Position numbers and translations under genes: made by a program
Part shown: positions 31,728-59,307 of the stretch, in pieces
How positions within the stretch are numbered: the stretch's first letter is position 1
How the letters are laid out: every line of letters begins with the position of its first letter
Assembly (NCBI RefSeq): GCF_900188205.1
Contig: NZ_FZOH01000004.1
Location: forward strand, 186,001-250,000
Length of the DNA: 64,000 nt
Origin: Geodermatophilus saharensis
Lineage (GTDB): Bacteria > Actinomycetota > Actinomycetes > Mycobacteriales > Geodermatophilaceae
Direction of reading: 5' to 3'
The notes under the pieces: model-generated
What the model saw: the letters and a program-made list of their open reading frames with translations, nothing else
Told to the model about the DNA's origin: nothing
Database searches by the model: none

Positions 31728-33368
31728 TCAGGAACCGTCGGTCAGCCGACGGACGACGGCCTCGCCGCCCACGCGGCGGATCAGCTCCAGGTCGCCACAG
31801 ACGACGAGCAGGTCACGCGCTCGGGACAGGCCCACGTAGAGCATTTCCCGAGCGCGCGCCTCGTCCCGGAAGCCGTTGACCGCCAGGACGACCGCCGGCC
31901 GCTCGAGGCCCTTGAACCCGAGGACGTGCCCGTAGAACAGGTCGTCGCCCTCCCAGAAGGTCTTCCAGTAGGCGTCCTGCCCGTCCCGCTGGCGCTCGAC
32001 CTGCACCGGGTGGCGGTGGTAGGTCGTGAGCAGCGCGACCGCCTCGTGCGGCCAGCCCTCCTCGAGCAGCGCGTCGGCGGCGTCGTCGGCCACACCGACG
32101 GCGTCCTCACTCGCACACGGGACGAACCGGACGGGCACGCCGTTGCCGCCGCGGTTGCGCATCTGGGTCGGCGTCAGGCTGCTGAACGTCCCGGCGATCT
32201 GCTTGGTGTTCCGCAGGTTCTCGTTGAGGTTGACCGGCGTCAGTGCCACGGTCGGCCGGCCCTGCCGGGCGAACACCCGCTGCCCCTCGTCGGCGAAGAC
32301 GTAGAGCTGCCCCTCCTCCGGTGAGCGCAGTGTCGCGACGACGGCCGGCCACCAGCTCTCGGCGAAGTCCTGCGCCTCGTCGATGACGACGGCGTCGAAG
32401 CGCTCGTCCTCGGGGAGGGCTCCGGCCAGGCTGACCATCTGCTCGGGGAGGCGGTGCTCCCAGTAGCCGCTGTCGTCGTCGGTGCCCGCGGGCACGCCCC
32501 AGTCGATGCCGAGGCCGTGGAACGTGCCGACGTAGGCCGGGCGCTCCCTCGGCCGCCAGGTGGCCACCCGCCGGCGGAGGAACTCCGCCAACCCGCGCGA
32601 GTAGCACATGACGGCGACCCGCTCCCCCGCGACGGCGAGACGGCGCGCCTTCTCCAGCGCCAGCCAGGTCTTGCCCGAGCCTGCCCCGCCGCGGATCTCG
32701 ACCCGGCGGTTGCCCTCCAGCAGGTCGAGCACGCGCGCCTGGTCGCGGGTGAGCAGGTCGCACTCGGCCTCGCGCTCGTGCAGCTGGGCGAGGAGGTCCT
32801 GCTGCGGGATGCCGACCCCGGCCAGGCAGTCGACGAACGCCTCGACGTCGTCGGCGGTCGGCGGCTCGGTCTCCGTCTCGCACTGGCGCAGCGCGGACGC
32901 GACGCGGGCGGCGGCCTGCGCCAGGTTGGTCCGGTCGATGACCGTCCACCGCGGGGCGTCGGGTGCGGCGAAGCCGTCGGGGACCACGGTCGCGGGCAGC
33001 GCGACCAGGTGGACCATCCGCGGGTCGCCGGCCCGCCACCGACGGTCCTGGCGCAGGTAGTCGCGCAGCAGGTACTTGCAGCGCACCGCCTGGTCCACCG
33101 GGTGGATGCGCCGGTCCACACCGTTGCTCGACTGGCGCCACTCGGCGCCCTGCAGGGAGACGCTGCCGCCCTTGACCTCGACGACGGCGATCCCGAAGCC
33201 TGGCCAGGCGACGATGACGTCGGCCTCGCGGTCCTCGCGCCGGTCGCTGAACCGCTGACCGCACACCATGACGGCGTCGTCGGGCAACTGGTCCCGCAGA
33301 GCCTCCGCGAACTCCCGCTCCGCGTGCGACTCGAAGACCGGCTCGGCCGGGAAGACCCGCGCCGTCAT
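31728..33368 (-). CDS. NERD nuclease-UvrD-like helicase
   Basis: A 546-residue protein from the ATG at 33368. Residues 12-130 are a NERD nuclease domain with EADVIVAWPGFGIAVVEVKGG-type active-site residues Asp50, Glu64 and Lys66. Residues 205-546 are a superfamily 1 helicase: motif Q/I LLTRDQARVLDLLEGN and GGAGSGKTWLA (227-237), motif II VVIDEAQDF, motif III FADEGQRVF, and AREMLYVGLSRARDLLVV near the end. NERD-helicases are found in DNA repair and in some phage-defence loci. The helicase is short but has all major motifs. Confidence 0.9.
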   Translation of the reverse strand: MTARVFPAEPVFESHAEREFAEALRDQLPDDAVMVCGQRFSDRREDREADVIVAWPGFGIAVVEVKGGSVSLQGAEWRQSSNGVDRRIHPVDQAVRCKYLLRDYLRQDRRWRAGDPRMVHLVALPATVVPDGFAAPDAPRWTVIDRTNLAQAAARVASALRQCETETEPPTADDVEAFVDCLAGVGIPQQDLLAQLHEREAECDLLTRDQARVLDLLEGNRRVEIRGGAGSGKTWLALEKARRLAVAGERVAVMCYSRGLAEFLRRRVATWRPRERPAYVGTFHGLGIDWGVPAGTDDDSGYWEHRLPEQMVSLAGALPEDERFDAVVIDEAQDFAESWWPAVVATLRSPEEGQLYVFADEGQRVFARQGRPTVALTPVNLNENLRNTKQIAGTFSSLTPTQMRNRGGNGVPVRFVPCASEDAVGVADDAADALLEEGWPHEAVALLTTYHRHPVQVERQRDGQDAYWKTFWEGDDLFYGHVLGFKGLERPAVVLAVNGFRDEARAREMLYVGLSRARDLLVVCGDLELIRRVGGEAVVRRLTDGS

Positions 33369-33477: not shown

Positions 33478-34677
33478 TCACGAGCGCGGTCCGTCGCCGG
33501 ACGGACCGCCCTTCGCGGTACCACCGGCCGACCGGGCGAGGGCGCGATCGAGGTGCGCCCTCGTGCGACGACGGGTCGCCTTCTCCAGCAGCGCCACGTC
33601 GGGCACATGCACGTGCCACGACCGCGCGGAGACCTGCTCCACCCGCACCGCCGGGTCCTCCTCGGCGAAGGCCTGAGCATCGGCGGGGTCCAGGACCATC
33701 GAGATGCGGTGGGCGTGGACGTAGGCCGCGACCGGCCGGTCCTCGGCGGGGTGCAGCGTCAGGTAGCTCGGGCGGTCGGTGACCACCAGGCGGGTACGGG
33801 CCGCCAGCTTGGTCAGGAGGGTGCGCAGGGCGGGCCGGACTCGGTGCTGCTCCAACAGCTCCGCCCACCTGCCCGTGTCGGGCGTCAGCCAGCGGGACGG
33901 CGTGCGGGTCGGGCGGGTCGGCCGCACCCCCACGACCGCGGTCTCGGCCGCAGCGGCCGCGCTCCGCCGGTAGAGGCGGGCCGGGGCGCCCATGAGGCCG
34001 TCGCGCCGGTCCGCCGTCGTCCCCTCCGCCTGCTCGATGAAGCCCCCCTGGGTCATGTACCGGCGGAAGGTGTCGATGGACGGCCGCTGCTCGCCGGGCC
34101 GAGGTGGGCCGGCCACGGCGCTGTGCAGGTCGAAGAGCTCCCGGATGGAGAAGTCCGCACCGAGCAGGCGGGCCGGGTCCGGTCGCACCGCGTACTCCCG
34201 GCGGAGGTGGTCGACGGCCACGCGGACGATCGCCGGGTGATCGACGAAGGTCAGCCCGCGGACGTCGTCGACCGGCCGCAGACGGAGCCGGCCGTCGCTC
34301 AGCACCGGCTCGAGCCGGCTCCGCGGGACGACGGCGAGGTGCGCCACCGACAGGACCCAGCCGCGCGGATCGCGCTCCGGCTCGTCGAAGACGCGCAACT
34401 GCTCGATGTGCACCCCGCTGAGGGCGCCCTCCTCGAGCCCGGCCTTGGCGGCCAGTGACCGCCGGACCCCTGCCTCCAACGTCTCCCCGGGGTGGAGGAA
34501 CGTACCGGGGAGCGCCCACTCGCCGTCGTCCTCGCGGAGGTGCTGGAGCACCTCGAGGCGCTGCTGGGCACGGTCGACGGTGAGGACGGCGGTGTCGACG
34601 GCGACCGACGGACGCGGGTAGTCCTGGAGCGTCCGCCCCGAGCTGTCGCGGTACCCGGAGCGCTTCCTGTTGACCAT
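33478..34677 (-). CDS. NrtR-like regulator: degenerate Nudix sensor, winged helix and extra C-terminal domain
   Basis: A 399-residue protein. Residues 20-160 are a Nudix fold, but the Nudix box (58-81) reads PGETLEAGVRRSLAAKAGL, where the catalytic REUxEExGU glutamates are replaced, so hydrolysis is unlikely. Residues 172-237 are an NrtR-type winged helix (FSIRELFDLHSAVAG, TFRRYMTQGGFIEQ, GAPARLYRR). NrtR regulators sense ADP-ribose and control NAD metabolism. An extra C-terminal domain (about 270-380) follows a disordered linker and resembles the protein at 37133 (YLTLHPAEDRPVAAYVHAHR against YVSLAPPQSEIAVYLHRNR). It is divergent from the ARPP-1 operon and a good candidate for its regulator. 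Confidence 0.82.
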   Translation of the reverse strand: MVNRKRSGYRDSSGRTLQDYPRPSVAVDTAVLTVDRAQQRLEVLQHLREDDGEWALPGTFLHPGETLEAGVRRSLAAKAGLEEGALSGVHIEQLRVFDEPERDPRGWVLSVAHLAVVPRSRLEPVLSDGRLRLRPVDDVRGLTFVDHPAIVRVAVDHLRREYAVRPDPARLLGADFSIRELFDLHSAVAGPPRPGEQRPSIDTFRRYMTQGGFIEQAEGTTADRRDGLMGAPARLYRRSAAAAAETAVVGVRPTRPTRTPSRWLTPDTGRWAELLEQHRVRPALRTLLTKLAARTRLVVTDRPSYLTLHPAEDRPVAAYVHAHRISMVLDPADAQAFAEEDPAVRVEQVSARSWHVHVPDVALLEKATRRRTRAHLDRALARSAGGTAKGGPSGDGPRS

Positions 34678-34694
34678 GGGCCTAGGATAGCGCT

Positions 34695-34708
34695 ACTTTG
34701 CGCCAAGT
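34695..34708. promoter_or_regulatory. candidate operator of the NrtR-like regulator
   Basis: ACTTTGCGCCAAGT is a 14-bp palindrome with one mismatched pair, 18 bases upstream of the regulator's ATG. A second inverted pair, GTGTCA and TGACAC with 16 bases between, lies near 34770-34800 towards the ARPP-1 gene. Both are plausible regulator sites; neither is proven. Confidence 0.45.
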
Positions 34709-34852
34709 CGCTCCCCCTCCGCAGGATCCCTCGGCCGACCGGTCGCTCCACACCGAGCAGTTCTGCGGAAAGTGTCAGACCCCCGCTCTACCGTGACACC
34801 TGCAGGCACCGCTCCACCCGCTCTCAGTATTTCTGAGCCATCGGAGGACGAC

Positions 34853-35707
34853 ATGACTACTTCCCTGGACACCCGGATCCACTGCGGGCAGGTCGAGGCA
34901 CGCGGTGCACTGTCTATCGCCCCTCTGTTCAGCGACTGGCCGTCCACGCCGCGCGGCTACCTGAGCGGCACGAGCGCCTCGGTCGAGGTCTCGGAGCTGC
35001 CCACGCCCCGGATCGACCGGCTGCTCGTGCGCAACCGCGGCACCCGGCCCGCGCTCCTCGTCGAGGGCGAGCTCATGGAGGGCGGCGCCCAGCACCGCGT
35101 CCTCACCGAGACGCTCCTCGTCCCGCCGGGTCAGGTGGTGCCCGTGTCCAGCCGGTGCGTCGAGGCGCGCCGCTGGCACACGGACCTCTCGGCGCACCGG
35201 CGGCGTGCCCGCCGGGCGCCGCTGGCCGTGCAGGCCGCGACGCGGAGGGACGACGCCCAGGGCGAGGTCTGGGCCCAGGTCTCTCGATACGACGCCGTCG
35301 CGGGCCCCTCGGCCACCGAGTCGCTGCCCGAGCGGCTCGACCGGGTGGAGGCCGCGACCCGCGACCTGACTGCCGGACTGCGTCCCCTGGCCGGCCAGCG
35401 CGGCGTCATCATCGGCATCGGGGGCCGTCCCGCCGCCCTGCACCTGTACGACAGCAGGACGACCCTCCTCGACAGCTGGGACGCCCTGCTGCAGGCTGCG
35501 GCGCTCGACGCCGTCGGGACACCACCGGTCCGGATGCCCGCTGCCCGTGCCCGAGCCCTCGCGGAGCGGGTCGAACGGACGCCGCTGCGCGAGGTCCCGA
35601 CGCCCGGGCTGGGCCGCCGGCTCGAAGGTGGGTCCCGGGTCCGCGTCGACACCCTGCACTGGAACGGCCGCACCGTCGCCCTGACCGCCCTCGTCCTGGA
35701 GGCCTGA
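34853..35707 (+). CDS. ARPP-1 domain protein
   Basis: A 284-residue protein from the ATG at 34853 with GGAGG 5 bases upstream. It matches the ARPP-1 family (ARG and Rhodanese-Phosphatase-superfamily-associated Protein): VEVSELPTPRIDRLLVRN, RPALLVEGELMEGGAQHRVL, TLLVPPGQVVPVSS and RCVEARRW correspond to the conserved core of repeated beta strands. As the name says, this family is associated with ADP-ribosylglycohydrolase and rhodanese-phosphatase genes, exactly the neighbour here (one base between stop and next ATG). Biochemical activity is unknown; a role in an NAD-derived signalling or conflict system has been proposed for the neighbourhood. Confidence 0.82.
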   Translation: MTTSLDTRIHCGQVEARGALSIAPLFSDWPSTPRGYLSGTSASVEVSELPTPRIDRLLVRNRGTRPALLVEGELMEGGAQHRVLTETLLVPPGQVVPVSSRCVEARRWHTDLSAHRRRARRAPLAVQAATRRDDAQGEVWAQVSRYDAVAGPSATESLPERLDRVEAATRDLTAGLRPLAGQRGVIIGIGGRPAALHLYDSRTTLLDSWDALLQAAALDAVGTPPVRMPAARARALAERVERTPLREVPTPGLGRRLEGGSRVRVDTLHWNGRTVALTALVLEA

Positions 35708-35708
35708 G

Positions 35709-37136
35709 ATGACCGCCCCCCTCTCCCGCCGGCACCGAGTCGCCGGCGCCCTCGTCGGCTCGGCCGTCGGCGACGCCCTCGGCGCACCGTTCGAGTTCGG
35801 ACCGCCCGGCCGCTTCTCCGCCGACTTCCCCTCCCCGGCCCGTGGGGCCCGCACCGAGATGCGCGGTGGTGGCTCACTCGGCTGGGAGCCCGGCGAGTTC
35901 ACCGACGACACCCAGATGGCGCTGCTCGTGGCCACCTCGCTGGTCGAGCACGGGGGGCTCTACGAGGCCGACGTCTTCGACCGCTTCCGCGCCTGGGCCG
36001 CGGCCGGCCCGCCGGACGTCGGCATCCAGACCAGCGCCGTCCTCCGCTCCGGCCTGCCGTGGGACCAGGCCGCGGCGGAGCACTTCGCGCGGACCGGTCG
36101 CGCGGCCGGAAACGGGTCGCTCATGCGGACGACGCCGGCGGCCATCTGGTTCTCCCGGTTCGGAACCGAGGCCACCGTGGACGCCGCCCGGCGCATCTCG
36201 GCTCTCACGCACGGCGACCCGTCGGCCGGCGAGGGCTGCGCCGTCTTCCACGAGCTCGTGCGTGTCGCCCTCGACGACGGCGACCCGCTGGCCGCCGTCC
36301 CTGCGGCCCTGTCGCTGGTTTCGGAGGAGCACCGCGGCAAGTGGTCCGCCGTCCTCGCGGAGGACTGGACGCCGCGGAAGGCGACCGAGTCCAACGGCGC
36401 CGTGTGGCCGACGCTCGGTCAGGCCCTGTGGGCGCTCCGGCGCGGCAGGGACTTCGCCGAGGTCATGCGGCTGGTCATCGACCTCGGCGGCGACACCGAC
36501 ACGGTCGCCTGTGTCGCCGGTGGCCTCGCCGGGGCCGTGTACGGGATCACCGGCATCCCGGCGCGCTGGGCGACGGCCGTGCACGGCACCGTCCCCGGAT
36601 ACGGGGACAAAGTGTGGCGGCCGGCCGGGCTGCAGGAGCTGGCCACCGCTCTCGACGGCGGCCCGCTGGTCACGTACGACCCGGGCCCCACACAGCGGCT
36701 CGGCCCGACCGAGGTCATCGACGGCCTCTGGGCCGCCGACCTGGACGGTGCCCGGTACGCCGACGAGGACTTCGCCGTCGTCTCCCTCTGCCGGCTCGGC
36801 GAGCCCTTCCCCCACGAGGTGAACCGGCTGGTCTACCTGACCGACGACGATCACAATCCGGATCTCGACGGCCTGCTGGACGACGTCCTCGGCGACATGA
36901 AGGCGTTCCGTGAGGAGGGGCACCGCGTCCTCGTGCACTGTCACGGCGGGGCGTCGCGCACCGGCTTCATCCTCTGCGCCTGGCTGATCCGCGAGAAGTG
37001 CATGGACGTCGAGGAGGCCACCGAGTCCGTCCGCGAGCGCTGGCCGCACCTCGGTCTGTGGAACGAGAGCTTCACCGCGGCGCTGCACCGGCTGGCCGAC
37101 CGCCGCGACTGCCGTACCGACGAGGAGGACGTGTGA
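35709..37136 (+). CDS. ADP-ribosylglycohydrolase fused to a cysteine phosphatase domain (copy 2)
   Basis: A 475-residue protein with the same architecture as the protein at 12149 and high similarity along its whole length. The ADP-ribosylglycohydrolase domain shows GALVGSAVGDALGAPFEF, GEFTDDTQMALLVATS (Asp66 and Asp67) and GGDTDTVACVAGG near residue 260. The phosphatase P-loop HCHGGASRTG has Cys411. Together the domains could strip ADP-ribose from a target and then dephosphorylate the product, for example ADP-ribose-phosphate-type compounds; this is inference. It is the second gene of the ARPP-1 operon and overlaps the next gene by GTGA. Confidence 0.92.
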   Translation: MTAPLSRRHRVAGALVGSAVGDALGAPFEFGPPGRFSADFPSPARGARTEMRGGGSLGWEPGEFTDDTQMALLVATSLVEHGGLYEADVFDRFRAWAAAGPPDVGIQTSAVLRSGLPWDQAAAEHFARTGRAAGNGSLMRTTPAAIWFSRFGTEATVDAARRISALTHGDPSAGEGCAVFHELVRVALDDGDPLAAVPAALSLVSEEHRGKWSAVLAEDWTPRKATESNGAVWPTLGQALWALRRGRDFAEVMRLVIDLGGDTDTVACVAGGLAGAVYGITGIPARWATAVHGTVPGYGDKVWRPAGLQELATALDGGPLVTYDPGPTQRLGPTEVIDGLWAADLDGARYADEDFAVVSLCRLGEPFPHEVNRLVYLTDDDHNPDLDGLLDDVLGDMKAFREEGHRVLVHCHGGASRTGFILCAWLIREKCMDVEEATESVRERWPHLGLWNESFTAALHRLADRRDCRTDEEDV

Positions 37137-37594
37137 GCACGCTGCAGGAGCACCTCGACGACCTGGACCCCGCCCCGGCGATCAGGGCGCTCGCCCTGGC
37201 GATCGCCCGGCAGCGGTCCGTCGACGCCGGCCGGCGCGACGACTACGTCAGCCTCGCCCCGCCGCAGTCGGAGATCGCCGTCTACCTGCACCGCAACCGC
37301 GTCTCCATCGCGCTGCCGCCGGAGAAGGCGGGCACGGCCGCACTGCAGATCGAGGGCGCAACACTCCAGGACAAGGAGTCGACCGTCTACCTGCGAGTGG
37401 GCGCCGACGTCCTGGCCGAGCACACGAACGACATGACCAGTTGGGCGCTTGCTGCCTACGACTGGAAGGCCGCGGGGCCGATGTCAAGCCACAGCGGCAG
37501 TGCGAAGTCAGCGGCGTCGCAACGGCCGGAGAAGTTCTGTCCCGTGCACCACGTTCCGCTCTCCCCGAGCGGCGTGTGCTTCTCGTGCGCCTGA
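37133..37594 (+). CDS. small protein with the regulator-shared domain and a C-terminal zinc ribbon
   Basis: A 153-residue protein starting at the GTG overlapping the upstream stop. Residues 14-111 resemble the extra C-terminal domain of the divergent NrtR-like regulator: PAIRALALAIARQRS, then DDYVSLAPPQSEIAVYLHRN, then RVSIALPP. A linker leads to a probable zinc-binding tail, FCPVHH ... GVCFSC, with C-x2-H and C-x2-C spacing. I know no family name for the shared domain. The coupling to the ARG-phosphatase fusion indicates a common function. Confidence 0.72.
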   Translation: MSTLQEHLDDLDPAPAIRALALAIARQRSVDAGRRDDYVSLAPPQSEIAVYLHRNRVSIALPPEKAGTAALQIEGATLQDKESTVYLRVGADVLAEHTNDMTSWALAAYDWKAAGPMSSHSGSAKSAASQRPEKFCPVHHVPLSPSGVCFSCA

Positions 37595-37814
37595 GGGACG
37601 TGGCCGCGGCCGGCGGTCGGTCGTCATCGGCCGTCACCCGTGTGCCGGATACCGAAGACATGAGGGCCGTGCGCTACTGACCGCCGGACCTGATCAGGCA
37701 AGCCGAGGGCGACGACCCCGACAGCTAGCCGGCCGCCGTCCGGGCGGCCCATGAACGACGACGACATGGCGACGGTCGGCGCGGCCGTGGCCGAGGGATG
37801 AGAGGACGGGACGG

Positions 37815-38486
37815 ATGACGACACTCGAGGAGCGCAAGGAGATGGGCAGCGGCCCGCTGTCGAGCCGCTATGACGAGGCGCTGGCATACGCGTCGGAGCA
37901 CCACCGCAAGCAGCTGCGAAAGGGCTCGCGGGTGCCCTACCTGACGCACCTCATGAGCGTCAGCGCGCTGGTCCTCGAGCACGGCGGCAGCGAGGACCAG
38001 GCGATCGCCGGGTTGCTGCACGATGCCGTCGAGGACGCGCCGAAGGGCACCGGCGGCACGGTCCTGACCGAGATCCGTGAGCGCTTCGGCGAGGACGTCG
38101 CGGACATAGTGCGAGCCTGCTCGGACGGGCTGGACGCCGACGGCAACCGCAGGGGCACGTGGGCCGAGCGGAAGCGGCCGTACGTCGCCGGGCTGAGTGA
38201 CAAGCCCCTCGACGCCCTGCTCGTGACCGCAGCGGACAAGACGCACAACGGGCTGTGCATCGCCGCAGACGTCCGCCGGTACGGGCAGGACTTCTGGAAG
38301 ACGTTCAACGCCTCACGTGACGAGCTGCTCTGGTACTACACGAGCGTCGAGCAGGCGGTCGCGCAGCGGCTGCCGGGTCACTCGATCACCGTGGCGCTGC
38401 ACCGGGCGGTCGACGACCTGCTGGCCGCGGCCGGCGCCGACCGCGCGTCCGTCGCCACGGAACTCCCCACGCGACACCAGGCATGA
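37815..38486 (+). CDS. HD-domain hydrolase, RelA/SpoT hydrolase-like
   Basis: A 223-residue single HD domain. The metal motif is complete: YLTHLMSV (His45), GLLHDAVEDA (His69 and Asp70) and VTAADKTHN (Asp140), with the KGSRVPYLTH lead typical of the (p)ppGpp hydrolase half of RelA/SpoT and of MESH1-like small hydrolases. There is no synthetase, TGS or ACT domain. It may hydrolyse (p)ppGpp or another nucleotide second messenger. It follows the ARPP-1 operon after a 220-base gap in which I see no gene, so it may be independent. Confidence 0.85.
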   Translation: MTTLEERKEMGSGPLSSRYDEALAYASEHHRKQLRKGSRVPYLTHLMSVSALVLEHGGSEDQAIAGLLHDAVEDAPKGTGGTVLTEIRERFGEDVADIVRACSDGLDADGNRRGTWAERKRPYVAGLSDKPLDALLVTAADKTHNGLCIAADVRRYGQDFWKTFNASRDELLWYYTSVEQAVAQRLPGHSITVALHRAVDDLLAAAGADRASVATELPTRHQA

Positions 38487-38572: not shown

Positions 38573-39406
38573 ATGGCGTTGCCCACCTGTCCGGTCTGCG
38601 ACAGCGGCGATCTCGACGGGGTCGAGAAGCTCCCCGATGGTCGCCTGGTGGTCCGCTGCCTTGCCTGCGACCACGAGTGGGTACGCGGCGAGGCTCTCGT
38701 CCCCGCCAAGCCGGCATTGGCGGCCAGCTACGAGAGCCTCAAAGGCGCCTTCCCCACGGCTGACGACGTGCGCCCCCAGGTCCGCCAGCGCGTCGAAGCG
38801 CTGATCGACACCTTTCTCGAGACGCAACCGCAGACGGACCCGCAGGTAGCTCCGTACTGGGCGAAGTACCAGCAGATCTTCAGCGAGGACGGCCTGTGGG
38901 AGGCCGATCCGGAGGACCTCAAGGCGTTCGCCAACAACAGCGTCGGGGCTCATCCCGGAAACATGTCTGTGTTCAACCAGGGCTGGAACGAGATGGGCAC
39001 CGAGAAGGCCGCCCAGCGGCTCCGGCGGACGATCGACCACCTGCTCCGCGGTCCTGCCGGCACTCGACTCGAGGACCGCTTCACCGACCTCGTCGAGGAG
39101 CGCAGGGGCCTGGGCATGGTCGGCTTCAAGGAGTCCCTGCTCACCCGGGTCCTCTGCGTCGTAGAGCCGAACCGCTTCCTGCCGATCCTCAAGTACTCCA
39201 CGCCATCCGGTGGCAAGAAGGAGATCGCCCTGCTCGTGTACGGCCTGGACTTGCCGGCACGCGAGAAGGTCTCGTGGACGATCGGGCGACTGGTCGCCTG
39301 GAGCAACGATCTCCTGGTCGGCCTGCTGCGAGAGCGCTTCACCGACCTCCAGCACGCATCCGCGTTCCTGTGGTGGGCCAAGGACCAGGCCCCGGCAGGC
39401 GCCTGA
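38573..39406 (+). CDS. hypothetical protein with N-terminal zinc ribbon
   Basis: A 277-residue protein with GGAGG ahead of the ATG. The first 45 residues contain a zinc ribbon (CPVCDSGD ... VRCLACDHEW). The rest is helical, with VFNQGWNEMGTEKAAQRLRR, LVEERRGLGMVGFKESLLTR, ILKYSTPSGGKKEIALLVYG and a C-terminal FLWWAKDQ. The middle resembles the non-catalytic part of some AAA or restriction-associated proteins, but I cannot name a family. It is convergent with the Macro-SIR2 gene, with 21 bases between the stops. Confidence 0.65.
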   Translation: MALPTCPVCDSGDLDGVEKLPDGRLVVRCLACDHEWVRGEALVPAKPALAASYESLKGAFPTADDVRPQVRQRVEALIDTFLETQPQTDPQVAPYWAKYQQIFSEDGLWEADPEDLKAFANNSVGAHPGNMSVFNQGWNEMGTEKAAQRLRRTIDHLLRGPAGTRLEDRFTDLVEERRGLGMVGFKESLLTRVLCVVEPNRFLPILKYSTPSGGKKEIALLVYGLDLPAREKVSWTIGRLVAWSNDLLVGLLRERFTDLQHASAFLWWAKDQAPAGA

Positions 39407-39427: not shown

Positions 39428-41062
39428 TCACGGGCCCTCGTGCGCACCCCACCGGTGGAGCGCGTCCAAGACCTCCTGCCACTCAGACGTCCGACGCGTC
39501 GTCCCGGCGACCTTCCGCACCTGTCCCTCCAGCCGGGCCAGCGCCTCCGCTAGCTCCCGCTCTGCGGGATCGTCGAGAAGGTCGGCATACCTGCGGTCGA
39601 GCAAGTGCGCCGACTCGCGCGACGCCAGGACCGCCACTCGGTCGAGGAGGATCTCGAGATCGCGACCGGCGGCCGTCAACCGCCGCTGGCGCTGATCGTC
39701 CGACTCCTCAGGGGGAGCCGCAGGACCAACGGCCACCGACTCGAACTCGGGATGCCACAGGCGGGCCGTGAGGTCGTCCCGCTCGAGCATCAGCAGGGTT
39801 CCCATGGTGGTCCTGGCGCCATGGTCCTCGTTGAGGGAAGCCACCTCATGCACCAGGCGGATGACGTTGTCGTCGGTCATCGAGGCGCCGACGACGAGGA
39901 GGTGCTTTGTCATCAATGTCGCCTGGAGGACGCTCGCTAGTGGACGTTGCGTGGCGTCGTAGCGGACGAACGAACGGCGGTCCAGGACGATGTCGTGCGG
40001 CCGCCGGGCGTCGCCGTGCATCTTGACCAGCCAACTGCGGCCTTGGGTGAGCGTGGTCCGCGCGTCTGCGCCCGGAAGGACCAAGGGGACGTCCCGGCCG
40101 TTCACCGCCTTGACCGCCTTCTCATACAGGTCGTCGAAGTTGGTGGTCACTACCTGTTCGACACCTAATGCCGCTAGCAGTACGTGTCCGAGTGCGTACC
40201 GGGTCGGGTTGCCGAGGGCGTCGACGACGTGCTCACCGAGGCTCTTGCCAGCCGGCCGGCGGCCTCCTCCGCTGGCCGGAGCACCGGCCAGCCGACGCAG
40301 GACCTCCGCTGCGTCGAGCGGGTTGAGCCGCATGAGGGCATCAACTCCGCCCGGGACGTCCATCCGTCGGGCCACTGCCGACAGCAGCCCGCGCCAGGTG
40401 GGGAGTCCGGCCGCGACACCCGTACCGGCACCCATGAACAGGGCAAGGTCCCCGCTGCGCGCACGTTCAGCCAGACGCGAGGCCAGCCCGTCCTGTCGGC
40501 CGGGCAGCGGAGGGAGGCCCATGGCGCGACGTTGCGCCTGCAGGGCCGAGTAGTCCGATCGGCTAGCTGCGACGATCACGACGTCCAGACCGTCTGGCCC
40601 CTTTTGCGCCTCCTCGAGGAGGCCGCGGATGACGGCGCCCCGCTGCCTCCCGTGGCCACCGCCACCGACACCAATGACGGGAAGCGCGATCCGTCGGGGA
40701 CGCCCTGTCGGCCTCTCACCGGAGTCCCCCACGGCCCGGAGGACCTGCCGCATCCCGTCTCGGAGCCACTCGACGTCCCCACCGGCCAACGCACCGACGT
40801 GCAGCAACCAGCGTGACGGCCCGTCGCCAGGTCGACCGTGAGGATCCAGTCGGAGGTACCTGCGCTCATCGTCCAGTGGCACGATCCTCTGCCGCTCGGG
40901 AACCGCGCTGTCCCAGCCGAGGGTGCGCCACCAGCGCCGCCGCACGCCCGCTGGACCGCGCTGGTCCGTGGAGACAATGACGTCGTCACAGTGCAGCGCG
41001 TCGAGGGTGCCGGGGACGACGAAGACATGAGCTGCCACACCCGCATCCTGTCGCGGCACCAC
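39428..41062 (-). CDS. Macro-like domain fused to SIR2-family NADase
   Basis: A 544-residue protein. Residues 10-185 look like a Macro domain: HVFVVPGTLDALHCDDVIVS, IALPVIGVGGGGHGRQRGAV and LDVVIVAASRSDYSALQ match the ADP-ribose-binding loops and final strand. Residues 203-420 are a defence-type SIR2 domain: LALFMGAGTGVAAGLPTW, VVTTNFDDLYEKAV (Asn308), VKMHGDARRPHDIVLDRRSF (His349) and HLLVVGASMTDDNVIRLVHE. In anti-phage systems such SIR2 domains deplete NAD+. A Macro sensor suggests activation by an ADP-ribose-derived signal. About 125 C-terminal residues are helical and unassigned. An AGGA-preceded GTG at 41038 is an alternative start. Confidence 0.82.
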   Translation of the reverse strand: MVPRQDAGVAAHVFVVPGTLDALHCDDVIVSTDQRGPAGVRRRWWRTLGWDSAVPERQRIVPLDDERRYLRLDPHGRPGDGPSRWLLHVGALAGGDVEWLRDGMRQVLRAVGDSGERPTGRPRRIALPVIGVGGGGHGRQRGAVIRGLLEEAQKGPDGLDVVIVAASRSDYSALQAQRRAMGLPPLPGRQDGLASRLAERARSGDLALFMGAGTGVAAGLPTWRGLLSAVARRMDVPGGVDALMRLNPLDAAEVLRRLAGAPASGGGRRPAGKSLGEHVVDALGNPTRYALGHVLLAALGVEQVVTTNFDDLYEKAVKAVNGRDVPLVLPGADARTTLTQGRSWLVKMHGDARRPHDIVLDRRSFVRYDATQRPLASVLQATLMTKHLLVVGASMTDDNVIRLVHEVASLNEDHGARTTMGTLLMLERDDLTARLWHPEFESVAVGPAAPPEESDDQRQRRLTAAGRDLEILLDRVAVLASRESAHLLDRRYADLLDDPAERELAEALARLEGQVRKVAGTTRRTSEWQEVLDALHRWGAHEGP

Positions 41063-41322
41063 GGACAGCCATCAGCCCGCTACCCTCACGGTGGGCCGCT
41101 GCCACACATGGCGCCGGCAGGTTCCTGACCTCCTCGGCGCGCTCGAGGAGCCAGCCAGGACGCATCAGGCGCGTCCAGACTCCGTGAGGAGCACCTGCGC
41201 CCCATCCGTCCCCTGTGCAGCCGCGGTCCCGGACACCCCATCGGGCGGCGATGTCGCGGATCCGGCCCACCTACCTTTCGGCGGTACGTCAGGCCAGGAC
41301 CGCACGTCGAGAGGAACCGACC

Positions 41323-43539
41323 GTGACGCGTGGCGACATTGAGCGCACCTCGTTCAACGAGGAAGTCGCACCCTTCATCGCGGCGGCTATCGGCGTCCCG
41401 GAGCGCTCACCCGACGGCCAGTCCGACCGGTTCGCCTACTTCGCCGACGACACCCGCTTCCTCGTCGTCGCCGGACCGCAGGAAGGTGATGCCGTCCAGC
41501 TGGCGCTGGCGTACGGCATGACCTGGGCCGGTGACCGCCGGCTCGTCCTGGCCCTCCCCCACGCCCATTCCACGGCCACCGCACAGCGCATCCCCTGGTT
41601 CAGCGACGCGCACCGTCCCGAGCTGTGGCTGCACGACGGCGCCACAGTCCGGCCGGCACCCGTGCTCGACCGGACGGCAGCGATCGCCGCCCTCGGCGCA
41701 CGCCTGGAGGACGGCGACGTCCGCACGGACTTCACCGCCGCGTCGACCGCCCTGCACCTCGGCGCCCGTGCCGGTGCGGTCGACCTGCTCGTCGACTGGG
41801 CGACCCGCGACTCCCGGCTGGACTCCGCACACCGGCAGAACGAGCGCGCGTGGCACTGCTCGGGGCAGCGGGTGCTGTCCGTCCGCGGCCGGCGGGGCGG
41901 GGTGCGTGTGCTCGCCGGCATCCACGGCAGTACCGACGACCGCGCACCCCTCGCGCTCGAACTGGATCACGGAACCCGGCTGACCGACGAGCAGCTCACT
42001 GAGGTCAGGGCCGCGGTCGAGGCGGGGATCGCCCGGCGTCTCCAACCGGGCGAGGGGTCGCTGCACCGTCCCGACGAGCACTGGCTGCAGGCCGTCCTGC
42101 GACGCCGCCCCCACCGGGTCGGCATCGAGCAGCCGGCGCTCCGCGAGGTGCCGGCCTGGCGTCCGCGCGACACTCCTGCACGCTGGAGCCGCGGCTACGT
42201 CGACCTGCTGGGGCTCGACGGTCACGGTGACCTGCGCGTCGTCGAGACCAAGCTGGCCAGCAACGACGACGCCCTCCTCGTGCTCCAGGGCCTCGACTAC
42301 CTCACCTGGGCCCAGGCCTACCGCGACGTGCTCGCAGACCGTCTCGGTGCCTCGCCGGCGGCCCGCCTGGTCCTCGACCTGGTCGTCGGTGCCGACGCGG
42401 ATGGCCAGGTCGCCCTGTCCCGGTACAGCGCCGCCCTGCTGGCCGCCCTCGCCGACGACGTCGCCTGGTCGGTGCAGGCCGTGACCGACTGGTTCGGCCC
42501 GGACGCGAGCCCGTCCGTGGTTTCCCCCGCCGAGCGGACCGTGCCCGCCGAGTGGACGGAGCCCGCCAGGACGGGTGACGACGCCTTCCGCACCGCCTGC
42601 CGTGCGACGGCCGTCCGCTGGAAGAAGCGGACCGTCGCGCTGCCGGATGACGCTCGTCGCCCGGCGCCGTATTGGGGCGGCCCGTCGTCCGTTCCGCTGC
42701 CCTTCTGCCTGCCGGTCGAGCACGCTGCGGCCAACCTGCTCCCCGACGTCCGCGAGGAGGCGCTGTCCCTCTTCGCCGAGCTGGGCATCCCCTGGCACCG
42801 GGGCCACGGCGCCGGGCCCGGCAACCACCTGCTGTCCTCGCAGGTGCAGTGCGTCAACGCGCTCACCCGCATGGTCCGTGACCCCGCTCGGCTGCAGAAG
42901 GCGTTCGGCGCGGTCCTCGATGTCGCCGAGGTGCTGCCCATCGAGCCGGGACGTCACCTAACGTTCGAGTTCATCGGCTCGGCCGACGTCCTGGGCGAGG
43001 CGCGGGGCGGCAGCCGGACCCGCGGTGCTCAAAACACCAGTGTCGACGCCGCCTTCCTGTACCGGACGTCCGAAGGCGAGACCGAGCTCGCGCTCGTCGA
43101 GTGGAAGTACACCGAGGAGTACCGGCGCGGCCGCCCGGCCGACCCGGCGAAGGACGCCGTGCGGCGGCAGCGCTACCACCACCTGTGGGCGGCGGACGAC
43201 GGCCCGCTGCACACGGACGTGGTCCCGTTCGAGGACATGCTGGCAGAGCCCTTCTACCAGCTGATGCGCCAGCAGCTCCTCGCCCACGAGCTGGAGGCGC
43301 GAGGAGAGCTGGGCGCCTCGGCGGTGCGGGTCGTCCACGTGCTACCGCCGGGCAACAGCGCCTACCAGGCCAGCCTCACCCGGGACAGCCAGCGCCGGGC
43401 AGGCTCGACGGTCGACGAGGTCTGGACGCGGCTGCTGCGCCGGCCCGACCGGTTCCGCCACTTGGACCCTGCGGTCTTCTGCGACCCGGCGGTCACCTCA
43501 GACGACTACGTCGCCCGCTACTCGGCGGACATCGCGTGA
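41323..43539 (+). CDS. protein with two PD-(D/E)XK-type nuclease regions; C-terminus PGN_0703-like
   Basis: A 738-residue protein from the GTG at 41323 (GAGAGGAAC about 7 bases upstream). A central region near 285-330 reads GYVDLLGLDGHGDLRVVETK, a D ... ExK nuclease signature. The C-terminal 230 residues resemble PGN_0703-family putative restriction endonucleases: HLLSSQVQCVNALTRMV, then NTSVDAAFLYR and LALVEWKYTEEY, giving a second D ... ExK site. It overlaps the next gene by GTGA. No DNA-recognition domain is recognised. It probably cleaves foreign DNA in concert with the next two genes. Confidence 0.72.
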   Translation: MTRGDIERTSFNEEVAPFIAAAIGVPERSPDGQSDRFAYFADDTRFLVVAGPQEGDAVQLALAYGMTWAGDRRLVLALPHAHSTATAQRIPWFSDAHRPELWLHDGATVRPAPVLDRTAAIAALGARLEDGDVRTDFTAASTALHLGARAGAVDLLVDWATRDSRLDSAHRQNERAWHCSGQRVLSVRGRRGGVRVLAGIHGSTDDRAPLALELDHGTRLTDEQLTEVRAAVEAGIARRLQPGEGSLHRPDEHWLQAVLRRRPHRVGIEQPALREVPAWRPRDTPARWSRGYVDLLGLDGHGDLRVVETKLASNDDALLVLQGLDYLTWAQAYRDVLADRLGASPAARLVLDLVVGADADGQVALSRYSAALLAALADDVAWSVQAVTDWFGPDASPSVVSPAERTVPAEWTEPARTGDDAFRTACRATAVRWKKRTVALPDDARRPAPYWGGPSSVPLPFCLPVEHAAANLLPDVREEALSLFAELGIPWHRGHGAGPGNHLLSSQVQCVNALTRMVRDPARLQKAFGAVLDVAEVLPIEPGRHLTFEFIGSADVLGEARGGSRTRGAQNTSVDAAFLYRTSEGETELALVEWKYTEEYRRGRPADPAKDAVRRQRYHHLWAADDGPLHTDVVPFEDMLAEPFYQLMRQQLLAHELEARGELGASAVRVVHVLPPGNSAYQASLTRDSQRRAGSTVDEVWTRLLRRPDRFRHLDPAVFCDPAVTSDDYVARYSADIA

Positions 43540-44033: not shown

Positions 44034-47000
44034 CCGGCCTCCGGGACGCCCAGGACGGCACGACCGTCGACGTCCTCGACCGGGTCGAGGAGAAGACCCG
44101 CGGGCGACTGCGCTCCTATCTCAGCTCCCGTGACGACTGGAACCAGTCGGCCAGCCTCAAGAGCCTCACCGAGCACGCGGTGCGGGACTACGAGCACCGG
44201 GCGCTCGTCGAACTGCTGCAGAACGCGCACGACGCCCAGGCACCGGGCGATCGGGCCGGCCGGGTGCTCATCCGGCTGGACGAGGACGAGGAGGCACACG
44301 GCGTCCTCTACGTCGCCAACAGCGGTCGCGGCCTCTCCGACAGCAACTTCGACGCGATCACCGACATCGCCCGGTCGGACAAGCGGCCCGAGGAGGGCAT
44401 CGGCAACAAGGGGATCGGCTTCAAGAGCGTCCTGCAGCTGAGCCGTCGACCCGAGGTCTTCTCGCTGCGGCACGACGCCCCCGACCCGGAGGCCCGGGGC
44501 TACTGCTTCGGCTTCGCCGCGGACGACGACATCGCGCGCGCCCTGGAGGCGCTCGGTCACGGAGCCGACGACGTCGAGAGGCTCACCGAGGACGTCGTCC
44601 GCGACGTCTTCCCGCTGTGCCTCCCGGCCCCGCGCCCCGATCTGCCCGAGGCCGTCCGCCAGCTCTTCGCTTCCGGTTACGTCACCGTGGTACGGCTGCC
44701 CCTGACCAGCGCCGAGACCGCGGACGACGCGCGCACGCAGATCGAGCAGCTCACCGACGGCCCGCCGGTCCTGCTGTTCCTGCGCCGCGTCGCCGAGCTG
44801 GTCGTCGAGACCGTGTCGGGGGAGACCGCGAGCCAGAGCGTGCTGCTCCGCACGGAGGCTGACCATGCCGGGTCGGGGCCGGCCACGGTGGTCCGTGTCG
44901 AGCTGGGCTACGCCGGCACCTGGGCGCTCGCCGAGCAGGCCGTGCCGGAGGCGCTGTCCGCGACGCGGTCGACCGCAGCATCGCCGGGGGTCACATCAGC
45001 GACGGGTGGCGCGACTGGACCGGTGAGATCCGCGTGTCCCTGGCACTGCGGCTCGACGAGGAGCTCGCCGAGGGCCGTCTCTACACGTTCCTGCCCATGG
45101 GACCCGACGCGGTGGCGCCGCTCCCCGCGCACGTCAATGCTCCCTTCTTCGCGCGCCTGGCCCGTGTAGACCTCGAGGCCACCGTGCCGCTCAACGACCT
45201 GCTGCTGGACCAGGTCGCCGAGCTCGGTGCGCGGCTCCTGCTGACCCCTGCCGACGACGAGCTCCCCGTACCGCCGGAGTCGCTGATCGACCTCCTCTCC
45301 TGGCGCAGGCCGGAGCACGCGCGGATCGTGCGGGCGTTCGAGCGACTCGGATCGTCGGTCGCCACAGCGGACGTCGTCCCCCTGCAGGCCCCTGAGCGGG
45401 CGAGGGGATCCCTGGCGACCGCACATCTGTGGGCCGACCACGATCGATCCGTGCTAACGGGCGAGGAGCTGGTCCGGCACGCCGGCGCCCGTCTCGTCCT
45501 GCGGGTGTCCCCCGAGCGGGCAGCGCGACTCGACGCCGCGGCTCGTGTGCTGGCCGGCCGGGAGCTCGCTCCGCGGCCCGGCGTCGTCGCCGACTGGGCT
45601 GAGGCAGTCGCTGGGAGCCTGGGGAAGCGCGGAGCCCCGCCGGAGATTTGGGGCACCTTCTACGACGAGCTCGCCGCGGTCGTCCCGGACCGTGCCGTGC
45701 TCCGCGGCCGCAAGATCCTCATCGACGATCACGGAGCGGTCCGCCGGTGCAACGGGGCGGAGGACCCCCGACGCAGGGCCGAGGCGTTCTTCTCGCCACG
45801 GTCGACCGGCGACGAGCCCGGTGGAGCGGAGGACATCAAGCTCCCGACGCGGCTGCGCCAGAACGTCTTCTTCGTGTCGCAGGCGATCGACTGGAACCCC
45901 CGGACAGGTCGTGTGGCGAGCAAGCGACCGGGCCGCGCTCTCCTCGAGGACGGCCTGGTGCAGGAGTACCGCGCGGACGCGCTGCTGCCCGTCATCTCCG
46001 AGGTCCTGCACCGCCGTCAGGCGGCCGTCGCCCAGGACGTCCTGCAGTGGACCTTCCGCTTCTCGACCACGCGGGACGAGGTCCCGTGGCGGGAGATCAG
46101 CAGGATGCGGCTGCTCGTCCCCCTCCGAAACGGCTCTTGGGCGCCAGCCGACGAGACCCTGCTTTCGGTCGAGTGGAGCGGCACGGACGTCGAGGTCCTC
46201 GACCAGTTGCTGCAGAGAACGGCCGGGACGTCCGCCGAGCTCGATGCCCTGGCCGGCTCTCTGGTGGCTCCGCCGTCGGACCCCCGGTTCGGCGACCTGC
46301 CGCAGGACGGTCTTCGCGATTTCCTCACCCGGATCGGGGTCCGGACAGGACTGGCGCCCGTGCCGATCGTCGGCACCCTCCGAATCCAGGGCCGCCAGCT
46401 CAGCGCCCCTGCCGCGCTCGTCGAAGCGGGACTCACTAGGCCGACGAGCGCCGTCCTGGCTGCGGCCGTCGACCAGCGCGCGCTGGGAGCGGCCCGCCCC
46501 TACACCGACTACGTTGCCACGAAGCCGCTCTACCGGCTGCCGGGCCAGGACGACTACGAGAGCTTCCCCCCGGCTGCCCGCATGGCCTATGCGTCACTCA
46601 TCGCCTCCGGCCTGCCGTGCTGGCAGGACGAGGTCTTCACAATCCCCATGGCGCGGCCGTCGGATCGACGTGAGGCCTTCCGCCTGTCCAGCCCTCTGCG
46701 CGCCTTCCTCACCGAGGTCCCGTGGGTGCCGGTCAGCCCGCCCGGCAACCGGACCGACATCGAGTACGTCCGCTGCCGGGACGCGTGGTCCCAGGCCGAC
46801 GACGCCCCGCCCTTCCTGGTAGTCATCGCCCGGCAGGTCCGCCGGGTCGTACACGCGTCACCGGCGACCGAGCGGCGTGCGCGGGAGCTCGGCGTCCGCC
46901 TGTGGGACGCGCCCGGGACCGCGGCCGACCGGGTGCTCCTGCTGGCGGACCTGTGGGAGCGCGGAGCGGTCGGCGACACCGTCGTCCACAACTTCAGGAG

Positions 47001-49341
47001 CGCGTACGAGGAGGCGTGGACCGACTTCGTCGGGTCCACGTCGCGCGGGACCCCCTTCGACGGCGCCACGAGAGCGGCCGTGGTGGTCACCCGAGGCACA
47101 CGGCTGGAGGTCGTGGACCTGCTTGATCCCGCTGGGGAGACCGTCTACGTGCAGGACGGCGACGCACGTCAGACGATGCAGCTGCTCGAGCAGAGCGAGG
47201 CCCTCGTCGTGCCGATCCGCGGTCCGCGTCAGGAGCAGATCGCCCGCCGCCTACAGGAGGCGTTCCCCGCGCGGGTCCGCAGGGTCTCGGAGCTGCAGGT
47301 GACCGTCTCGGTCGACGGTCAGCCGTTCCGCCCGGGATCCGATCGGCCCCTGCTCGTCGGCGCCGATCACTCGTGGTTCGTCGACCTGGTGGCCGCCGTC
47401 GTGGAGCTGCGCGGCAGCAGCTTTCGCCGCACGACTCCGGAAGCGCTCCGACGCGTCGTCGCCCGGCTCCGTCGCATCCGCCTGGCCTGGGCTCGCGACC
47501 TTTGCACACAGGTCGACGGACGGGACGTCGAGTTCGGTCGAGGGTCCCGGTCCCAGGCGATCCAGGACGAGGAGAACCCCACCGTCCTCCTGGTGGACGA
47601 CGGGACGGGCGAAGCAACCGCGCTGGAGCGGGCTGCCGCGTCGGTGTGCGAGCTGATCGGCCACCCGGAGCTCGCTGCTGACCTGCGTCTCGTCCTGATG
47701 GACCTGCGCGCGGGCGGACACGGTCCCGGCCGGCCACCGGGACCCGATGCCCTGGCCGCGGTGCTGAACGAGCCGACCGCGCGGGTGGCCGAGGTCCGGT
47801 CGTGGCTGCGTCAGCCGGACGACGTCGCCCTGTCGGTGCTCATCCCGGTCGTCGCGGTGTTCGACGTCGACGAGGCGCGATCGCTGGCGCGCGAGGACGA
47901 GGACGCCCCTGCTGCAGCGGACCTGATCGATTGGCTCGCCGCTCGCACGAGAGCAACGGACGCCGTGGCGCGACTGACCGCGGCGGCTGCGGAGGGCGAC
48001 CTGGACCTGGCTCGCCGAGTCCTGCAGGTCGGCCTCCCCAAGCTCAACGCGGCGATCCAGTTGCTTGGCGCGCCGTACGAGGCCTTGAGGGACGAGGACG
48101 CGATCGAGCAACAATTTCGGGCCTTCCGCTCCCGGTGCGAGGAGGAGGTCTTGCACGCCTTGCGGCTGGCACACCTCGTGGAGTTTCGACGGGGCGAGCC
48201 GCTGGACGACTACCTGCAAGCGCGCTCGCTGAGCAGCCTAACGGCCGATCCGGCCTGGGCCGACGAGTACTACGGGGAGATCCCGCAGGAGCTGCTGCGC
48301 GCGCGGGTCGACGACTGGCTCACGGTCCACTGCGGCGAACCGGACCACAAGGGCACCACCCTGCAGCCGCTCGCAACGGTGCGGGTCGACAACCGCAGGC
48401 AAGTGATCGAGTGGGCGGCGGCCGCGCTGCAGGCGGTTCGGGCGAAGGCCGAGCTGGCGACGCCGACGGCGGAGTGGCCCTCGGGCGCCGACCTCGCGGA
48501 CCGTATGGCTGACCTGGGACTGTTGGACTTCGAACCGCTCCCCGTCGAGCGGTTCCTCGCCTGGCTCCGGGATGTCGAGCTGTGGCCGGCCGACCTGCCG
48601 CTGACCCTGGACGTCGAGGCGCTCGGGTTGTCGGCCGATGCGGTCCAGCGAGCTCAGGACGATGCAGCGCAGGAGCGGCGGGCCCGTCTGGAGGCTCGGC
48701 AGCGCGTCATCGTGGACGGCCGCGAGGTCCTCGGAACCGAGAGCAACTACGCGGACCTCCGGGCTCTTGTCCTGGCCGGCATCGACGACGCGTTCCGTCG
48801 GTCCTCAGGAGAGGTCAGCCTGCGGCCCCTGAGCAGCAAGACGACCCCGCGTCCTGCCGCCCCGGGCCGTCCGGGCCTCGCAGCCGCGCGTCAGCAGCGA
48901 CTCTCGGACGTGCAGGCAGCGGCCGTCGGGTTGGCAGGAGAGGTGGCTGCGCTCGAGTGGGTGAAGGCCAAGCACCCGGGTGTGGACGAGTTGGAGATCT
49001 GGCTGTCCGGCTACCGGAACAAGGTCCTCGGAGACAAGCGGGGCGACGACACTCTGGGGTTCGACATCCGAGTGGATGACCGGCGCACGTGCTGGTTCTA
49101 CGAGGTCAAGGCGTCCATCGGGTCGGCAGGCGAGTTCCTGTTGACCGCTGGTGAGATCGCCCGGGCACAGAACCTGAAGCACCGCGAGCGGTACTCCGTG
49201 CTGTACGTGGAGCACGCTCTGAACAGCGACCTCCGGCGGATCTACCAGTTGCCCAACCCCGTCGACCCGCGCAACTCGCAGCACTTCCGGACGGTCGGAG
49301 AGGGCATCCGCTATCGCTTCGAGCTGCGCAACGGGGCATGA
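44030..49341 (+). pseudogene. sacsin/HSP90-like ATPase with DUF3883 C-terminus, split by a frameshift
   Basis: Two open frames form one gene. The first (44030 to stop 45169) encodes a GHKL/HSP90-like ATPase: LVELLQNAHDAQ (N box, 59-70), VANSGRGLSDSNF (G1), and GIGNKGIGFKSVL (G2), typical of sacsin-type proteins. Coding sense moves to the other frame at about 44955, where AVPEA is followed by VRDAVDRSIAGGHISDGW in the new frame, and continues to 49341. The last 150 residues are a DUF3883 domain (LAGEVAALEWVKAKHPGV, TLGFDIRV, CWFYEVKASIG). One added base restores 1,770 residues. The part after the shift could restart at GTG 45034. It overlaps the upstream nuclease gene by GTGA. The shift may be mutation, sequencing error or recoding. 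Confidence 0.8.
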
Positions 49342-55593: not shown

Positions 55594-55642
55594 CCTGACT
55601 CACCAACTGCTGCAGTCCTCCCACGGCGCGCAGACTCGACAC

Positions 55643-56113
55643 GTGCCACAGCCCAACGGGGAAGCGACAACGGACGCGCGCCAACCCCGAGCGCTCAGTC
55701 CGGGCCGGTCCCGCAACATGCAGGCCAACCGCCGGGTCGACTCGAAGCCCGAGATCAAGCTCCGTTCTGCACTGCACGCCCGCGGCCTCCGCTTCAGGAA
55801 GGACCATCGGCTCGATCTGCCTGGCGCCAGGGTCAGACCAGACATCGTGTTCACCCGGCGCAAGGTCGCCGTGTTCGTCGACGGGTGCTTCTGGCATGTG
55901 TGTCCGGTGCACGGACGGCAGCCCACCCGCAACGAGTGGTACTGGACTCCCAAGCTCCGCCGGAACGTCGAGCGCGACGAGCAAGCCAACGCCGCGCTTC
56001 AAGACGCCGGCTGGAGCGTCGTGAGGGTGTGGGAGCACGCAGGGCTCGAGGAAGCCATCCAGGCGGTCCTTGCGGCGGTTGAACACGCCCCCGACGGTAC
56101 GAGGCGGGTCTGA
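55643..56113 (+). CDS. vsr: very short patch repair (Vsr) endonuclease
   Basis: A 156-residue protein that would nick DNA at T:G mismatches formed when 5-methylcytosine deaminates. The family pattern is clear: LSPGRSRNMQANRRVDSKPE, RFRKDHRLDLPGARVRPDIV, VAVFVDGCFWHVCPVHG and NEWYWTPKLRRNVERDEQ, with the catalytic Asp in RPDIVF and the zinc-binding Cys/His residues. The GTG at 55643 is chosen because Vsr proteins start shortly before the LSPxxRSRNM helix. It lies 50 bases from the divergent methyltransferase copy 2, matching its role as that enzyme's repair partner. Confidence 0.92.
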   Translation: MPQPNGEATTDARQPRALSPGRSRNMQANRRVDSKPEIKLRSALHARGLRFRKDHRLDLPGARVRPDIVFTRRKVAVFVDGCFWHVCPVHGRQPTRNEWYWTPKLRRNVERDEQANAALQDAGWSVVRVWEHAGLEEAIQAVLAAVEHAPDGTRRV

Positions 56114-59298: not shown

Positions 59299-59307
59299 GA
59301 GCAGCAC

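Follow-up and report, generated by a model that had tools for sequence, protein, structure and literature searches.

We analysed a 64,000-nucleotide stretch of the Geodermatophilus saharensis genome (contig NZ_FZOH01000004.1; hereafter the window), which at 33478..37594 carries a regulator gene divergent from an operon for ARPP-1, an ADP-ribosylglycohydrolase (ARG) fused to a dual-specificity cysteine phosphatase (DSP), and a small zinc-ribbon protein. Judged from its sequence, this cluster of a soil actinobacterium is predicted to strip ADP-ribose tags and to process what is released. On balance, it is probably the Geodermatophilus version of the ARG-centric system, i.e. an operon that would be induced by ADP-ribose, erase ADP-ribosylation and process the product, with a fuller form in relatives that would have its own writer, an ADP-ribosyltransferase (ART)-like protein. 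We favour this reading because the regulator-ARPP-ARG core is conserved and divergent in the order and in named actinobacterial loci, because the operator is conserved in intergenic regions and has one strong site in the host genome, because the Nudix glutamates of the regulator are replaced while the ARG and phosphatase residues are intact, and because an in-operon ART-like gene, whose signature residues pair with those of ModA, tracks the ARPP genomes and has left remnants in the window, G164 and G140.

In the core operon, the gene for ARPP-1, a putative enzyme (34853..35707, + strand; PF20208 in Pfam, E 3e-52), is followed after one base by that of the ARG-DSP fusion (35709..37136, +), which overlaps the gene of the 153-aa small protein (37133..37594, +) by GTGA. 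The four genes, the one-base gap and the overlap were exactly where an earlier sequence-only reading of this DNA had placed them. ARPP-1 gave an AlphaFold2 (AF2) model with a predicted local distance difference test score (pLDDT) of 95.7, and its invariant residues among 65 sequences (alignment A7) include N61, Q80, C102, E104, R107, W108, Q136 and W140. The second gene encodes an ARG domain (PF03747, E 2e-67) and a phosphatase domain (DSPc, PF00782, E 1e-13) on one polypeptide; residues D66, D67, D262 and D264 of the former and the HC-x5-R motif of the latter (C411/R417) are invariant in 18/18 aligned sequences, a paralogue from the window among them. This second fusion, at 12179-13552 (+), is 74% identical to the operon copy and has no adjoining ARPP or regulator; second ARG-DSP copies are also present in G164, G194 and G140. 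In the ARG-DSP tree, the operon copy groups with G164, L128 and L129, and the window paralogue with that of G164. As contexts interleave in this tree, neither a purely vertical nor a single-transfer history is claimed. Relatives of ARG-DSP occur on 121 plasmid records.

Linkage was quantified in samples of 200 genomes of the order, 396 of the phylum and 112 of the family, in which ARPP-1 was present in 10, 41 and 19 genomes respectively, and in 80 named ARPP loci, each taken with up to 10 kb on either side. The latter are the best 80 of 176 relatives found with an alignment as query; a single ARPP protein as query against genome contigs gave zero relatives. Regulator and ARPP are divergent in 10/10 order loci (window, L041-L049), and ARG-DSP follows ARPP in nine of them, G140 keeping only its first ~52 codons. 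Gene content of the named loci was scored by frame-independent tblastn, the ARPP gene itself being uncalled in 11/80 by gene calling. Matches were found to the regulator in 60 loci, ARG(-DSP) in 69, the NERD helicase in 39, SIR2 in 22, HD in 13, the ART-like gene (L128 sequence as query) in 6, the small zinc-ribbon protein and the restriction endonuclease (REase) in 4 each, and a further zinc-ribbon protein, Zn2, in 2; some matches are fragments, some loci are clipped by contig ends, and many are close kin (Arthrobacter). The association expected by the sequence-only reading is therefore borne out for regulator, ARPP and ARG, while the small zinc-ribbon gene, which it had placed in the same four-gene set, is not core, since 4/80 named loci carry it. 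Where ARG was called directly after ARPP, the two lie at most 20 bp apart in 43/52 named loci with a median 4-bp overlap, so that their tight spacing is beyond chance. Among eleven further phylum loci read (L050-L060), the gene set is present in L050 only. The regulator is found beside ARG-DSP without ARPP in seven order-sample loci (G078 has one gene between), and ARPP was found on one viral contig, L205, where gene calls are poor. In the Microbacteriaceae loci L157, L178 and L201, a protein of 223-295 aa, HD-like by eye, is encoded between ARPP and ARG-DSP.

The regulator (33478..34677, - strand) consists of a degenerate Nudix domain, a winged helix and a C-terminal extension (aa ~270-390). 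In Pfam, its Nudix domain matched PF00293 at E 5e-7, and the NrtR winged helix PF21906 was matched at E 0.026, below cut-off. A profile of 18 regulators matched the solved structures of NrtR (3gz5, E 6e-32), AraR (5bs6, 1e-27) and, over its winged-helix part, NadQ (7q91, 3e-14). These profile comparisons place the regulator in the NrtR fold family, a Nudix fold being followed by a winged helix, as had been proposed earlier from the letters. The Nudix box motif is GX5EX7REUXEEXGU, and the corresponding segment of the window protein reads GTFLHPGETLEAGVRRSLAAKAGL. Among 18 aligned regulators, the first two glutamates of REUXEE are replaced in all and the third is a lysine in 17, E being kept in L095; the Nudix domain is thus predicted to be catalytically dead. 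A single such regulator is encoded in the host genome, the only other match being marginal (E 2e-4).

Between regulator and operon, at 34687-34706, lies a 20-bp palindrome, ATAGCGCTACTTTGCGCCAA, which is the predicted operator. The family consensus, TTAGCGCAGATCTGCGCTAA, was derived with an iterated palindromic matrix from 64 divergent intergenic regions; the matrix was seeded by eye, and scoring was leave-one-out with 100 shuffles per intergenic. The operator is conserved in 57/64 regions, where the best score is reached by at most 1/100 shuffles, and the window site scores 15.6 against a shuffle mean of -7.7. Seven intergenics fail this test: L125, L126, L143 and G048, whose regulators have the C-terminal extension, as well as G146, L144 and L145. 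The nine intergenics of extended regulators score below the 55 of short ones (Mann-Whitney 3e-5, on hand-copied scores and with kinship uncorrected), and the same comparison within Geodermatophilaceae, 9 vs 9, gives 0.02 (kinship uncorrected). In the host genome, 34687-34706 is the only place that fits the pattern with 0-1 mismatch; when up to two mismatches are allowed, the match counts are like those of the controls (26 and 29 vs 26 and 28). A regulator controlling unrelated NAD genes only, the case that the sequence-only reading had set against itself, was therefore not seen, the sole strong site being in the regulator's own divergent promoter. No sigma-70 promoter turned up when 34600-34900 was scanned. 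From its conservation we take the palindrome to be the operator, at which the regulator would act as a repressor.

The C-terminal extension is present in 3/18 regulators of alignment A2 and in seven from named loci. The window regulator and the small protein match each other by BLAST at E 0.001, and a hidden Markov model (HMM) of eight extensions, searched among called genes of the order sample and named loci, finds the small proteins of the window, L129, L128 (= G194), G164, L130 and L137 with E-values between 8e-15 and 1e-7. As judged from these matches, the extension and the N-terminal part of the small protein are a common domain. The small protein ends with a Cx2H-x9-Cx2C tail that reads as a zinc ribbon; searches of Pfam (E <= 1), NCBIfam and PADLOC gave no match to it, and its best in PHROGs was at E 0.14. 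Its gene was found at seven separate loci of Geodermatophilaceae (window, G164, L128, L129, L130, L137, L250). Six Nocardioides loci (L148, L151, L153, L166, L186, L192) have, in place of the Nudix regulator, a related protein of 163-236 aa upstream of ARPP and on the same strand, which, as judged by eye, may be a helix-turn-helix (HTH) regulator of a third kind.

The candidate writer is encoded in relatives of the window operon. In L127, L128, L129 and L179, the order is ARPP, ARG-DSP, small protein or Zn2, ART-like gene, HD, the third position being taken by Zn2 in L127 and L179; it is ARPP, ART-like, HD in L125, ARPP, ARG-DSP, ART-like in L141, where HD is not adjoining, and, in L250, which lacks ARPP, regulator, ARG-DSP, small protein, ART-like, HD. 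The ART-like and HD genes overlap by 4 bp in L125, L127, L128, L129 and L179. Eight ART-like sequences share invariant R215, S244, E280 and E282, which follow the order of an R-S-ExE signature (catalytic R, S-x-S, E-x-E). When the profile of the family is aligned with six T4-Mod-type ARTs, the best alignment sets them opposite R72/S96/E163/E165 of ModA, a 4/4 pairing against at most 2/4 in 200 column shuffles; this register test was devised after the motif had been read by eye. ART-PolyVal (PF18760), the intended yardstick, was present in 0/98 relatives and in none of the control genomes, and T4 ModA/ModB relatives were taken instead. With remnants counted and kinship uncorrected, the family is associated with ARPP both in the order sample (6/200 genomes, of which five belong to the 10 ARPP carriers and the sixth, G020, is marginal at E 5e-4; Fisher 6e-7) and in the family sample (15/112 genomes, i.e. 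9/19 with ARPP, of which G643 is marginal, and 6/93 without; Fisher 5e-5, or 3e-4 without G643). It was found in 0/296 phylum genomes, a draw without any known intact-gene holder, which therefore shows little.

The window itself retains, at 37576..37752 (+), a remnant of about the last 50-60 codons with two in-frame stops, the match starting inside the end of the small-protein gene (E 7e-13 to L129 in a 600-bp search, 9.8e-7 in the whole genome). It is followed at 37815..38486 (+) by an HD_4 hydrolase gene, small-alarmone-hydrolase/MESH1-like, whose counterpart lies downstream of the ART-like gene in relatives. In G164 the ART-like gene is in pieces and without residues about 212-261, R215 and S244 included; in G140 only its end remains; and in G. 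telluris (L129, L258) a change of frame separates the match to the N-terminal 69 residues from that to the remainder. Loss of the gene seems frequent. The sequence-only reading had the operon make or clear a signal: clearing fits the window, while a possible maker, the ART-like protein, would be found only in relatives.

A number of results weigh against an ART in this role. The hhalign probability of the family with T4 Mod is 0.20% and 0.27%, next to 0.14% for an unrelated control (Macro-SIR2 alignment), and the alignment score, reached by 15/100 shuffles, is not significant. Searches at E 10 returned nothing in Pfam save one DUF (0.27), no ART match in NCBIfam or PADLOC, and nothing in the PDB; the best PHROGs match was no better than E 0.12. 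AF2 failed on the core (pLDDT about 30-40). Moreover, 6/15 family genomes bearing the gene are without ARPP, no ARG adjoins it in L125 and L249, and apart from the marginal G020 match it was found only in Geodermatophilaceae, so that it is not core to the wider system. Because the motif test was post hoc and the overall score not significant, the ART identity is a reading and not a proof; what favours it is solely the way the catalytic residues line up, and not the score. Identification by fold was tried and rejected, since the AF2 core failed, Foldseek gave zero matches at E <= 0.001, and VIA-align covered mainly residues 1-120. The ART-like core had no match in phages or plasmids and no relative in viral contigs.

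ARG-centric host neighbourhoods, in actinobacteria and others, were described by Iyer, Burroughs, Anantharaman and Aravind (Viruses 2022; PMC9503650, section 3.8), who proposed that they counter viral ADP-ribosylation. Their prediction assumes an external (phage) writer, and their search excluded a genomically coupled ART or sirtuin, which is a filter and not a part of the system. Both sets share a Nudix-HTH regulator (in the published system this may also be a WYL-HTH protein), ARG, a rhodanese-superfamily phosphatase fused to ARG (or, as published, encoded next to it), and ARPP; the variable accessory genes are those of an HD phosphatase, a REase, a helicase and a Macro protein. All of these components are found in the window, with ARG and phosphatase in one protein. 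The published system further has a predicted peptide-binding chaperone (vWA, SseB, TY-Chap); the small protein, which was compared with this component, is without a Pfam match. In contrast to the published filter, the window has an adjoining Macro-SIR2 gene and its relatives an in-operon ART-like gene, and because of this breach we class the window system as a variant. The gene set had thus already been predicted in print. The sequence-only reading had named no experimentally described system with this exact set, and no experiment on an ARG-centric system was found in a literature search that left most subscription journals and preprints outside. What is new is the operator, the common domain, the in-operon ART-like gene, and the recurring Macro-SIR2, REase and NERD-UvrD neighbours; operator, regulator/zinc-ribbon common domain and ART-like gene loss are absent from section 3.8 of PMC9503650.

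The regulator also resembles NrtR of M. smegmatis, which, according to its published account (PMC6800001), has a degenerate Nudix domain with a helix-turn-helix, a neighbouring target operon and a palindromic operator, controls NAD genes, and is released from DNA by ADP-ribose (50 mM as printed). The two differ in operator (GTTTTCGA-N7-TCGAAAAC for M. smegmatis NrtR vs TTAGCGCA-N4-TGCGCTAA for the window family), in target (nadA-nadB-nadC vs ARPP-ARG), and in the extra C-terminal domain of some window-type regulators; ADP-ribose, shown as ligand of the former, would by analogy be that of the latter. DraG structures 2woc and 6dre are among the PDB matches of the ARG profile. DraT-DraG and others are ADP-ribosylation writer/eraser pairs, to which the DraG-family ARG domain of the window and the ART-like partner in relatives are alike; however, the window ARG comes with a fused phosphatase and with separate ARPP and Nudix regulator genes, and the ART-like partner has no significant match to a known ART.

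From the gene identities, linkage, operator conservation, common domain and remnant computed above, the following scheme may be drawn. The Nudix-winged-helix protein would bind the palindrome in the divergent promoter and repress both itself and the operon, which, as in the studied NrtR, would open when ADP-ribose or a derivative accumulates. ARG, given its family and intact active site, would strip ADP-ribose from a macromolecule. Phosphates on the product, or on its precursor, would be removed by the cysteine phosphatase joined to ARG and by the HD hydrolase; ARPP-1, following a published guess, may act on the freed ribose moiety. In relatives, the mark that ARG removes would be written by the ART-like protein, whose gene immediately precedes HD, whereas the window strain would have lost the writer and retained the eraser. 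The families of the Macro-SIR2, REase and helicase genes suggest that the operon is part of a defence island. More tentatively, the relatives may hold a complete ADP-ribosylation circuit in one derepressible operon, with an ART-like writer bearing a fused N-terminal domain, an ARG-phosphatase eraser, ARPP/HD processing, and an ADP-ribose-sensing regulator with, in some members, a captured zinc-ribbon-protein domain; the writer would then be a new ART family, seen only in Geodermatophilaceae and repeatedly lost while the eraser stays. The in-operon writer candidate, the defined 20-bp operator and the common domain make the ARG-centric logic directly testable, and raise the question of whether the system responds to ADP-ribosylation from outside or edits marks that it makes itself.

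Three other explanations were considered. The operon could be a pure counter-measure, as in the published prediction with the same domain set (PMC9503650), removing ADP-ribose that phage ARTs put on host macromolecules; in that case it would lack its own writer, the ART-like gene being something else or a passenger. That 74/80 named loci are without an ART-like homologue, that the window retains the eraser only, and that its neighbours are defence-like agree with this view, but the ART-like gene stands inside the operon, with its 4-bp HD overlap in five named relatives, and a SIR2 match lies nearby in 22/80 named loci, contrary to the no-ART/sirtuin filter; we hold it to be rather unlikely. 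Somewhat less likely still is an addiction or abortive-infection module, in which the ART-like protein would be a toxin, ARG-DSP its antidote, and derepression by ADP-ribose would set the balance.

Finally, ARG-DSP and HD might recycle ADP-ribose, phosphorylated NAD derivatives or damaged nucleotides in an operon for NAD salvage or turnover. Here, L101 (6905-10604, genome G009) counts against the ADP-ribosylation reading, since it joins by overlapping ends ARG-DSP, a PnuC transporter and a NadR-like-HD fusion (AAA_28 + HD_4, weakly CTP_transf-like), i.e. the HD domain of the ARG-centric system fused to a NAD-salvage-type enzyme, and thus points to NAD salvage; the control of NAD genes by M. 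smegmatis NrtR (PMC6800001) agrees with it. However, PnuC/NadR homologues were found in L101 only, among 120 stretches (some overlapping; G215 and G296 without called genes), and the patchy distribution of ARPP (10/200 order genomes), the nuclease, helicase and SIR2 neighbours, and the lack of a strong operator elsewhere in the host genome make salvage improbable.

Around the core operon, a NERD-UvrD helicase (31728..33368, -) is a recurrent neighbour: homologues at E < 1e-100 occur in 24 order genomes, 17 of which have an ARG match within 20 kb, while in the others ARG is 34 kb away (G078) or not near (six genomes). Downstream lie three accessory genes, namely Zn2 (38573..39406, +; a weak match, under cut-off), Macro-SIR2 (39428..41038, -), which joins a Macro domain to a SIR2 NADase-like domain, and REase-ARP, a PD-(D/E)XK nuclease (41323..43539, +; PF22558, E 1.6e-38 on the longer open reading frame 41215-43539). 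PF22558, NERD-UvrD, HD_4 and Macro-SIR2 genes are all within 7 kb in the window. REase follows Macro-SIR2 in G. telluris as well (L129), where the order from helicase to REase is that of the window except for the ART-like gene and Zn2.

In profile searches, the N-terminus of Macro-SIR2 matches macroH2A1.1 (4e-6) and its C-terminus chains of DSR2, ThsA and KomC; N300, D302 and H341, which we take to be the catalytic residues, are invariant in nine sequences. The SIR2 domain is shared with these NADases, and the N-terminal Macro domain sets the protein apart from them. ThsA carries SIR2 plus a C-terminal SLOG-type domain; the PADLOC profile of Thoeris ThsA was matched at 10-210 of 478 only, the SLOG-type part being unmatched. 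Between REase and the methylase region, 45034-49341 (+) encodes a 1435-aa protein with a C-terminal NO VEIN domain (PF13020). A lower-GC stretch follows at 54241-63999; it encodes a large DEAD helicase, a C5 DNA methyltransferase and a Vsr endonuclease, and in Klenkia marina (G064) the ARPP operon is flanked by homologues of this helicase and methylase.

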